This document shows, piece after piece, positions 29,772 to 34,834 of a stretch of 42,693 bases of DNA. The stretch's first letter is position 1. Every line of letters starts with the position of its first letter. The stretch comes from an uncultured bacterium (lineage in GTDB: Bacteria; Patescibacteriota; Minisyncoccia; Phycocordibacterales; DATDWN01): assembly GCA_903861205.1 (NCBI GenBank), contig CAIOTC010000022.1, forward strand, positions 64,025 through 106,717, in the 5' to 3' direction. Under the pieces are notes generated by a model. That model saw only the letters and a list, made by a program, of their open reading frames with translations, had not been told where the DNA came from and searched no databases. Position numbers and translations under genes: made by a program.

Positions 29772-29800
29772 TTGACAAACTATTTGGTAGGGTGTATAAT
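29772..29800 (+). promoter_or_regulatory. Consensus sigma70 promoter of DGR target gene
   Basis: TTGACA, 17 nt, TATAAT. Confidence 0.85.
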
Positions 29801-29968: not shown

Positions 29969-30691
29969 ATGAGCGATTTAATGCTCGATGTTGACCAGGC
30001 CGGTGAGTTGAAGGCTGCGTTTCGGCGTGGCGATTGGACCAACGCGGAAATCAAACGCGCTTGTGAAGGAAACTTCCTAGCGCAAGTGCGCAAGGTTTTG
30101 CTGGGTCAAGCGCAAATTGTCGATGTGGTGAAAAAGGTCACGGAAGTTGTGAAAGCGGTCAAAAAAGTCCTGACCCCATTCATCACCATCACAACCGGCG
30201 GAACGACTACCGATCAGCTTGTCGTAGACATCAAAGCGAACAAGAACGAGAACGGAGTTGCGGACGAAGTTTCGGACTACGCCAAAAGCATGATGACAAA
30301 CAAGGCGTTCACCATCTCGAAAGAGGTGGGGACTGCCGATTTGGTCGCGCTGACTATCGCCGAGCTTGGCTTCGCCTCGAGCCCGCGCACGGACGAGTTT
30401 ATGACCGCCGAGTTCTGTGCCAAATGGAGCGCGGAAAATCTCGACGGCATGGTCATCGAACTCTGTCAGCCAGAGGATGGTCCTCAACTGCGCAAGCAGT
30501 GGAAAGATCAGCCGAAAGGCATGGCGGTTTGGTTGGCCATGAAGCGTATTTCTGATTCCGGCGGCGTTCCGCGCGTTTGGCGCGTTGAGTGCCTCTCCGA
30601 CGGTCCTCGGTGGCTGTCTGGCATTTGGGCCCGCCCCGGCCGTCGCTGGGTTCTCGGCGATCGGGTCGTCTTTCGTTTCCGCAAGATTTGA
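29969..30691 (+). CDS. DGR target protein with C-terminal variable repeat (likely C-type-lectin fold)
   Basis: AAGGAG RBS before ATG 29969; C-terminus VWRVECLSDGPRWLSGIWARPGRRWVLGDRVVFRFRKI is encoded by VR. Confidence 0.92.
   Translation: MSDLMLDVDQAGELKAAFRRGDWTNAEIKRACEGNFLAQVRKVLLGQAQIVDVVKKVTEVVKAVKKVLTPFITITTGGTTTDQLVVDIKANKNENGVADEVSDYAKSMMTNKAFTISKEVGTADLVALTIAELGFASSPRTDEFMTAEFCAKWSAENLDGMVIELCQPEDGPQLRKQWKDQPKGMAVWLAMKRISDSGGVPRVWRVECLSDGPRWLSGIWARPGRRWVLGDRVVFRFRKI
30550..30684 (+). repeat. DGR variable repeat (VR)
   Basis: Aligns without gaps over 135 nt to TR; 22 A->N differences and one C->T. Confidence 0.96.
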
Positions 30692-30747
30692 ACTTTGTCA
30701 CTGGGTCGCTCTGCTTCGCACTGTGATCCTCCGATCTTCGTTCTTCC

Positions 30748-30775
30748 GTCCCGCACTTCGGTGCGGGACTTTTCT
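30748..30775 (+). terminator. Hairpin/terminator after DGR target gene
   Basis: GTCCCGCAC-TTCG-GTGCGGGAC followed by TTTTCTAT. Confidence 0.85.
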
Positions 30776-31035
30776 ATATTATAAAAATAAGTTAAGATGA
30801 AAGCGGTAGTAGGCAAATCTGCCGGCGACAAAATTTCCGGTGGCCGAATCCAGTATCCATGCATCGAGAGTGTCGGCGAGTTACTTTTCCGGCATAGTGA
30901 TGTGTGAGATTTTGAAAAAATGAAGATACTTGGCGCGCTGTATTGAGTGATTTTGATCACGCATAAAATTCAACTCCGAGAGTATTAAAATTTCAAGGAG
31001 TGGTGTATAGGATGATGCGGCGCGCGTTAAACTTG

Positions 31036-31170
31036 TTCTGATTCCGACGGCAATCCGAACGTTTGGAACGTCGAGTGCAACTCCGACGGTCATCGGTGGC
31101 TGAATGGCAATTGGGCCAACCCCGACAATCGCTGGAATCTCGGCAATCGGATCGTCTTTCGTTTCCGCAA
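31036..31170 (+). repeat. DGR template repeat (TR)
   Basis: Adenine-rich AAY codons in VR frame: SDSDGNPNVWNVECNSDGHRWLNGNWANPDNRWNLGNRIVFRFRK. Confidence 0.96.
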
Positions 31171-31200
31171 ATCTCCTCATTTCCTCGCGAGACACATAAT

Positions 31201-31548
31201 TTATCTTGCGAGGTTTTGTTTTTCAACTTGACCGTACCAACCACCTATCATTTTGCCGATGTTATTGAGTTTTTCGGAAATCTCGGCGTATTGTTTTAAT
31301 TCCAAAAGATTCATCTCCCATGCGATGTGAATGAATACTTTTATAATATCCACTTTAGCTATGGATTTTTTCAAATAAGGAAGCTTGTCGGTTTTTTGCA
31401 AAAATCCAGCGATGGATAAATTTTCAATTATTTCCACAAACAAGTTGTCTATTTTCAAACCGATGGAGTATCGCAGTGGTTTTGGAAATTTTAAAAATAA
31501 TTTATTCCACTTGATATACAAATCTTTAATATGAACAATAACTGGCAA
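31201..31548 (-). CDS. avd: DGR accessory protein Avd-like (four-helix bundle), TTG start
   Basis: RYSIGLKIDNLFVEIIENLSIAGFLQKTDKLPYLKKSIAKVDIIKVFIHIAWEMNLLELKQYAEISEKLNNIGKMIGGWYGQ. Confidence 0.88.
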   Translation of the reverse strand: MPVIVHIKDLYIKWNKLFLKFPKPLRYSIGLKIDNLFVEIIENLSIAGFLQKTDKLPYLKKSIAKVDIIKVFIHIAWEMNLLELKQYAEISEKLNNIGKMIGGWYGQVEKQNLAR

Positions 31549-31579
31549 AAAGGATGCGGGGGGGGGTCTTTGTAGTCAT

Positions 31580-32605
31580 TTGATTAAAAAATTTAATATT
31601 GTCTACGACGATATCATATCTACAGAAAATTTACTATTGGCGTGGAAAGAGTTTTTGAATGGCAAGCGTAAAAGGAAAGATGTGCGAACCTTTGAAATAA
31701 AATTGGCTGATAATATTTTTGATTTGCGTGATTCTCTCAAGTTTGGCACCTACAAACACGGATCATACCTTGCTTTTACGGTTCACGATCCGAAAAGGAG
31801 AAATATACATAAAGCAAGCGTCAGAGACAGGTTACTTCACCGGGCAATTTATAGAAAGCTTTATCCACCGTATGACAAGATTTTTATTGCTGATTCTTAT
31901 TCGTGTCGTGACAACAAAGGAATTCACAAGGCTCTTGGTCGTTTCAAAAAATTTTATTGGAAAGTGAGCAAAAATAACAGACGGACGGCATGGGTTTTAA
32001 AATGCGATATCAGAAAATTTTTTGATTCTATTGACCACCAAATACTGGTATCAATTTTGTCCAAAAAAATAGCAGACCAAAATATTTTGTTACTTCTGGA
32101 AAAAATTATCGCAAGTTTTGAAAAAACTTCTGGCAGAGGAATACCACTTGGTAATTTAACTTCTCAACTGTTTGCTAATATTTATATGCACGAATTTGAT
32201 CAGTTTGTAAAACAAACGCTTAAAATTAAATATTACATCCGCTACGCCGATGATTTTGTTTTTCTGTCGCAAAGCAAACCGGAACTGGAAAATTTTTTGC
32301 CGAAAATCAAAAAATTTCTGGAAAACGAGCTGGAGCTCGACCTGCATCCGAACAAAGTTTTCATCAAAACCTTTTCTTCCGGGGTTGATTTTCTCGGCTG
32401 GGTCAATTTTCCACACCACAGGGTTTTGCGGACAGTGACAAAAAGAAGAATGTTGAAAAAGTTGGCTAAACCGAGCAATGGCTCGTTCGCCCGATCCGCC
32501 AAAGGTGGATTTAGGGAAAATAATACGAAACCTGAAACAATCCAGTCGTATCTCGGATTGTTGGGTCACGGGAATACATATAAGATTCAAAATTTGATTT
32601 TATAA
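31580..32605 (+). CDS. DGR-type reverse transcriptase
   Basis: GIPLGNLTSQLFANIYMHEFDQFVKQ; YYIRYADDFVFLSQ; GVDFLGWVNFPHHRVLR; linked to TR/VR and Avd. Confidence 0.96.
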   Translation: MIKKFNIVYDDIISTENLLLAWKEFLNGKRKRKDVRTFEIKLADNIFDLRDSLKFGTYKHGSYLAFTVHDPKRRNIHKASVRDRLLHRAIYRKLYPPYDKIFIADSYSCRDNKGIHKALGRFKKFYWKVSKNNRRTAWVLKCDIRKFFDSIDHQILVSILSKKIADQNILLLLEKIIASFEKTSGRGIPLGNLTSQLFANIYMHEFDQFVKQTLKIKYYIRYADDFVFLSQSKPELENFLPKIKKFLENELELDLHPNKVFIKTFSSGVDFLGWVNFPHHRVLRTVTKRRMLKKLAKPSNGSFARSAKGGFRENNTKPETIQSYLGLLGHGNTYKIQNLIL

Positions 32606-34144: not shown

Positions 34145-34834
34145 TTATAGCACAATTTGTTTTATGCCCCATTTAGGATTTTCTTTTATCCATTTTGAAA
34201 TGTCCGTCCATTTCAATCCATGGAAACCAAATTGTTTATCGTACACATGGTCTTGACCTTCTATGCCAAATTTTTCCGCAATTTCAGGAGGGGCAAATTT
34301 AATGCCGGCATTTTCCATAATTTTTCGATTCCAGACGCACAAAACTAAATCTTCCGGGTGATATTTATTAAAAGCTCCTTCATCAGCAAGTCGTTTTGAT
34401 GTTTCCAAAAATTTTTTGCTTCGTAGGGAAAAACCTCCATTTCCAACTACCACTTTATCAAACAGTTCTCTTGGAAAAGAATATTTATCAAACCAAAATT
34501 CATCATGAACAAACCAAGGAGGACCGACGAAGTCATATTTTAAAAATTCATCAGTCCAAGAACTTGGGTTCAGAACAAATCCGTCATGTTGGACCAATAA
34601 TACAAAATCGGTAGAAACATAATTCGCTAGATCGCGGATACAAAATTTAGAAAAGGCTTCAATAGATCCAATGTGTGGAATGCTGATTTCCCGAACATCG
34701 TTTGTGGGAAGTGAAGTTAGAAGTTTAACTTCCGCGAATTCTATTTCAGCGCATGAAATATCCAAAGCTTTTTGAAGTCTTTCTACATTCACACAATCTA
34801 TTCCTGCAAGTGTAACACCTGGTAGTTTTTTCAT
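34145..34834 (-). CDS. DUF5672-like putative glycosyltransferase
   Basis: STDFVLLVQHDGFVLNPSSWTDEFLKYDFVGPPW...VGNGGFSLRSKKFLE. Confidence 0.75.
   Translation of the reverse strand: MKKLPGVTLAGIDCVNVERLQKALDISCAEIEFAEVKLLTSLPTNDVREISIPHIGSIEAFSKFCIRDLANYVSTDFVLLVQHDGFVLNPSSWTDEFLKYDFVGPPWFVHDEFWFDKYSFPRELFDKVVVGNGGFSLRSKKFLETSKRLADEGAFNKYHPEDLVLCVWNRKIMENAGIKFAPPEIAEKFGIEGQDHVYDKQFGFHGLKWTDISKWIKENPKWGIKQIVL

Follow-up and report, generated by a model that had tools for sequence, protein, structure and literature searches.

The locus described here raises the question of how a diversity-generating retroelement (DGR) can bear a recently rewritten variable repeat (VR) when, as assembled, neither its reverse transcriptase (RT) nor its accessory protein Avd is in frame with its upstream ATG. 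The window, i.e. the whole stretch of DNA that we analysed, comprises 42,693 nucleotides from an uncultured Patescibacterial bacterium. The original prediction assigned positions 29969-32605 to a complete, apparently active DGR. All main parts indeed lie inside that interval, the cassette is complete and the VR has the marks of recent rewriting, but the activity claimed for the present genotype does not follow, since an assembled run of nine guanines (G9) puts the upstream ATGs of both RT and Avd out of frame. Judging from the sequence, we consider it highly probable that translation of the mutagenesis machinery of this Patescibacterial DGR is phase-variable.

Target gene and template/variable repeats

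29772..29800, plus strand: sigma-70-type promoter TTGACA-17-TATAAT upstream of the target gene, assigned by its 12/12 consensus match only
29969..30691, plus strand: DGR target gene, 240 amino acids, with the VR at its C-terminus, an upstream promoter and AGGAG before the ATG
30550..30684, plus strand: VR, changed at 22 of 29 template-adenine positions and at 1 of 106 others
30748..30769, plus strand: intrinsic-terminator-like hairpin after the target gene, from sequence
31036..31170, plus strand: template repeat (TR), from its gapless match to the VR and a search for copies in the genome
31183..31213, plus strand: hairpin with a T-rich tail 3' of the TR (-15.6 kcal/mol, z = -4.9)

The predicted TR/VR pair is borne out in full. 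The two repeats align without gaps over 135 nt, and their identity ends at both borders of the intervals given. The altered adenines of the TR appear in the VR as G (10), C (7) or T (5), while 105 of the 106 non-adenine positions are identical and the sole change is C to T. This pattern indicates that the VR is recently rewritten, although it is evidence of past retrohoming only. Changes confined to TR adenines are also found in 130 of 153 related loci. TR and VR are the only two copies of the repeat in the 884-kb genome (24 contigs, 99% complete), in which no further VR was found elsewhere; there is thus one DGR target. Of the two terminator-like hairpins, the one at 30748-30769 closes the target gene and that at 31183-31213 closes the TR transcript. 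The second hairpin probably serves the TR RNA as terminator or 3' spacer and likely marks the end of the template RNA, which would carry only ~45 nt past the TR. The spacer after the TR of Bordetella phage BPP-1 is much longer.

The target protein itself matches no known family by sequence, nor does its C-terminus match known lectin families. Its structure model has pLDDT values of 85-92 across most of residues 70-240, and the best solved matches of the C-terminal model are C-type lectin domains (mincle, langerin), at a level that is not significant (E=0.69, TM 0.23-0.35); a C-type-lectin fold is plausible from the model. An N-terminal segment, DVDQAGELKAAFRRGDWTNAEIKRACEG, is also present in the targets of L035, L008, L032 and L029. 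This shared segment (LDVDQAGELKAAFRRGDW.. / LDVVQAAELKYAFERNG..; 29969-30110) heads otherwise dissimilar DGR targets and has no Pfam match above the cut-off. Near the DGR, positions 34145-34834 encode a DUF5672 protein of unknown function.

RT, Avd and the tract between them

31201..~31579, minus strand: avd, bAvd four-helix-bundle accessory protein; ATG 31577-31579, with the body in frame only at tract length 8 or 11
31531..32605, plus strand: DGR reverse transcriptase; ATG 31531, with the body in frame only at G8/G11
31558..31566, read as G9 on plus and C9 on minus: proposed slippage switch common to avd and RT, from the frame test and as the sole such G run in the genome

Both linked proteins named by the original prediction, a DGR-type RT and an Avd-like protein, are real. 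The RT matches RVT_1 in the profile search (1.6e-25) and has the DGR-type motifs IPxGxLTSQ and YxDD. Its best solved structure is 8ub7 (E=1.6e-39), which we take to be the BPP-1 RT, and its IPLGNLTSQ aligns with IPIGSLTSQ of that structure. Our tree, built from DGR RTs alone, compares it with phage DGR RTs. Avd matches bAvd PF22296 above the cut-off (3.2e-11) and DivGenRetAVD NF033474 at 4.6e-18 and 65 bits, under that model's 80-bit cut-off. Flanked by TR and RT, avd is encoded on the minus strand and diverges from the RT gene. A search with the window RT found no relatives in IMG/VR, so that by this test the DGR is not phage-borne.

The G9 run at 31558-31566 is the only G run of at least nine in the genome on either strand, and the idea that such tracts are simply common genome-wide was rejected on this ground. 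The RT body itself lacks an in-frame ATG; between tract and body there is only a TTG, at 31580. Starting from the RT ATG at 31531, the assembled G9 gives 14 codons (MNNNWQKGCGGGSL) and then a stop, and G8 or G11 reads through the whole RT (357-358 amino acids). Starting from the avd ATG at 31579 on the minus strand, G9 gives 17 codons (MTTKTPPRILFASYCSY) before a stop, and G8 or G11 an Avd of 125-126 amino acids. Hence the same tract lengths, 8 and 11, bring both upstream ATGs into frame. With G7 or G10, a second ATG at 31554 would yield the RT without Avd. The predicted N-terminal peptides of the locus are MTTKTPP... and MNNNWQKGCGGG.... Since the upstream ATGs are out of frame at G9, the assembled genotype looks OFF.

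The window taken singly would also fit an ordinary constitutive DGR, in which the G tract is incidental and both proteins start at TTG codons past it. Such codons are available in frame, at 31580 for the RT and 31548 for avd, and could allow some tract-independent translation; moreover, the VR pattern proves past activity. Across related loci this explanation becomes improbable, for reasons that emerge from the distribution of the repeats and the fate of the avd start codon.

Distribution of repeats among related loci

Such RTs turned up in 114 genomes when a genome collection was scanned and 380 genomes from the phylum were surveyed. The study set consists of 150 non-redundant Patescibacterial DGR RT loci. 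Their usual layout is target/VR, TR, avd (minus) and RT (plus). A non-triplet repeat occupies the avd/RT junction in 91 of the 150 loci, and a second site lies inside the RT, near residue 190, in the loop before the IPLGNLTSQ motif: 89 loci have a repeat at the junction only, 17 in the middle of the RT only, two in both zones and 42 in neither. The remaining 660 kb of these loci contain only 27 repeats, which makes the density at the junction ~88-fold enriched. This concentration is difficult to reconcile with an incidental tract in a constitutive DGR.

The junction repeats comprise G7 to G13, (GA)n, (CT)n, (GT)n, (ATTG)7, (CTGTC)7 and (TGTCC)8. Repeat units at both sites measure 1, 2, 4 or 5 nt; triplets account for 0/111 there vs 4/27 elsewhere (p=0.001). 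Read on the RT strand, the majority of tracts consist of G or GA, which resembles a Shine-Dalgarno element. The tract could therefore act not on the reading frame but on transcription or initiation, either by altering promoter spacing or as a purine-rich element for ribosome binding (GGGG or GAGA). We regard such tuning as very improbable, because the same place can also be occupied by CT, GT, TGTCC or ATTG repeats, triplet units are missing from both sites, and 17 loci have their repeat deep in the RT coding frame; the frame agreement between RT and avd described below argues likewise.

All tract-bearing loci belong to one Patescibacteria-only clade of the RT tree (SH-aLRT 98), in which ~31 loci have no tract. 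The tree implies no fewer than 36 changes of repeat type and no fewer than 26 changes of its place. Such a tract is missing from all 12 phage DGR loci examined (BPP-1 not among them), and the distant Patescibacterial RTs L130-L140 have one at neither site. In 30 related genomes, picked for carrying these RTs, 36 of the 71 G runs of at least nine lie at an RT start. The related genome G185 has six further G runs of at least nine away from DGR RTs on contigs C5 and C9 (33483, 13214, 29773, 30909, 93271, 148559), and judging from these runs other Patescibacterial genes may be phase variable.

Reading frames across the junction

Among loci that lack a tract at the junction, avd can start at an in-frame ATG in 42 of 43; among those with one, in 25 of 80 (p=6e-14). 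The latter fraction (31%) fits the random-phase expectation of 1/3 (p=0.72). From the loci without a junction tract, ATG is the normal start codon of Avd; this speaks against TTG 31548 as the avd start of the window and weighs on constitutive expression as a whole. In addition, 40 of the 80 junction loci have no avd start codon of any kind after the tract, a further point against a constitutive DGR.

The RT follows the same frame. Where it lacks its own ATG after the tract, the tract length that it needs equals that needed by avd in 21/21 unambiguous loci (shuffle mean 7.1), and a tract length serving both genes exists in 34/34 loci. We also considered that this agreement might be forced by the codon constraint of antisense coding, and rejected it: under synonymous recoding, ATGs usable on both strands arise in 13.5 loci (maximum 20) vs the 34 observed, with 42% agreement. 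In ~27 junction loci an ATG past the tract is available to the RT, implying that only avd is switched there. Retrohoming is described as requiring Avd (PMC10053308), so that switching avd alone should suffice. The loci share descent and these counts are not fully independent, although this is less of a concern given how often repeat type has changed along the tree.

A Shine-Dalgarno sequence precedes 1 of 76 proposed avd ATGs (background 8.8%). Its absence there is uninformative, given that post-tract RT ATGs also mostly lack one (3/35 have it). TATnAT-like hexamers stand ~7 nt before the avd ATG, e.g. in L027, L035, L036 and L040 (minus strand); their bases are also fixed by the antisense RT codons (DIIS). 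Together with the absence of Shine-Dalgarno sequences, the hexamers could reflect a leaderless avd mRNA.

Tract length and the second repeat site

Where the flanks are conserved between related loci, tract lengths vary, with G10 in L106, G9 in L123, L089 and L107, and G7 in L095; the L124 contig ends within its tract, and its relative L102 has G11. In-frame and out-of-frame genotypes both occur, as compared between species with one genome each. A homopolymer length from a single assembly may be wrong, but the presence of GA, GT and pentamer repeats at this position speaks against an assembly artefact.

The repeat in the middle of the RT is nearly always (GA)n, coding RERERE. Such (GA)n loci are L110, L112, L114, L117-L122, L125, L126 and L128, at ~+520 to +580 nt from RT residue 17. 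Eight of the mid-RT repeat loci are in frame and nine are frameshifted. Homopolymers and microsatellites are error-prone to assemble, so that the out-of-frame loci might be assembly errors, or else decaying pseudogenes. We find this scarcely credible. The nine frameshifted RTs contain no other stop in either half, and their VRs, found for eight of them, are changed at 140/270 adenine sites vs 7/710 other sites, i.e. ~1% non-adenine change. Clean VRs in frameshifted loci imply recent activity and fit a switch, not decay. The window, assembled OFF with a clean VR, repeats this pattern. Furthermore, repeats have been maintained or replaced over a deep tree.

That the assembled genotype is out of frame in roughly two thirds of loci, whose VRs are nonetheless clean, would also be expected if ribosome or RNA polymerase slipped on a fixed tract, so that programmed slippage provided some full-length protein with no genetic switching. 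G9 runs can be slippery. Nevertheless, GA, GT, tetra- and pentanucleotide repeats are no classical slippery sites, the same site shows in-frame and out-of-frame genotypes, and orthologous tracts differ in length. Programmed slippage therefore seems unlikely to us.

Proposed mechanism

We return to phase variation as the preferred reading. A hypermutable repeat, G9 in the window, sits within the overlapping, divergent 5' ends of avd and RT, where slipped-strand mispairing at replication would add or remove repeat units within the population. At n = 8 or 11 both ATGs are in frame and Avd and RT would presumably be co-produced; at n = 9 neither ATG is in frame and neither protein would be made. 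In the ON state, homology and the VR pattern suggest that the DGR would copy the TR, with errors at adenines, into the VR of the target. In the OFF state retrohoming would presumably be lost and a good target variant kept and inherited, to the likely benefit of the cell. A stochastic mutator (slippage) would thereby govern a directed mutator (the DGR), and cells would go back and forth between trying out new forms of the target and preserving the good ones. We think it likely that this extends to a whole bacterial radiation, in which repeat slippage, both heritable and reversible, gates the hypermutation by DGRs by turning Avd on and off, frequently together with the RT; this switch would have been re-invented often, with varied units and at two sites.

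Relation to known systems

DGRs and repeat-driven phase variation are each well known. With its TR/VR pair, RT and Avd, the window element is a DGR, and its mode of control is one that we did not find described. It resembles the BPP-1 DGR (mtd, avd, TR, brt) in having the same parts, the adenine-specific change from TR to VR and a bAvd-family accessory protein. Unlike in BPP-1, avd lies on the opposite strand and divergent from the RT, a hypermutable tract lies where the two starts overlap, and the DGR target is a cellular protein.

The contingency loci of Neisseria, Campylobacter and Haemophilus typically switch surface, restriction or modification genes. Like these simple-sequence-repeat (SSR) loci, the present ones carry repeats with non-triplet units, placed within or close to the beginning of a reading frame, and show a random on/off phase among genomes. 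They differ in that the switched genes constitute a targeted mutator and that one tract serves two divergent genes. In the open-licence literature we found no report joining DGRs with repeat-driven phase variation, and none of phase variation in Patescibacteria.

As far as the accessible parts of Roux et al. 2021 (PMC8144416) describe it, the Patescibacteria-restricted DGR clade 2 is similar in being Patescibacterial and cellular with a DGR-type RT. On the basis of the phylum and of the Patescibacteria-only clade (SH-aLRT 98), the clade of the window RT is probably clade 2. The same parts of that paper (PMC8144416) state that the activity of clade 2 DGRs is significantly lower, with stronger RT control or stronger selection as possible causes, and contain no mention that we found of a frameshift, a pseudogene or a repeat-based switch. 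The junction tract is a candidate for the missing control of this clade.

How DGRs are restrained is little known, and an unrestrained DGR would destroy each good variant that it makes. A readable on/off mark in the DNA means that VR diversity should follow the frame of the tract, in existing metagenomes. Many DGRs annotated as broken or start-less are probably just switched off. If the repeat-switch reading is true, Patescibacteria use phase variation.
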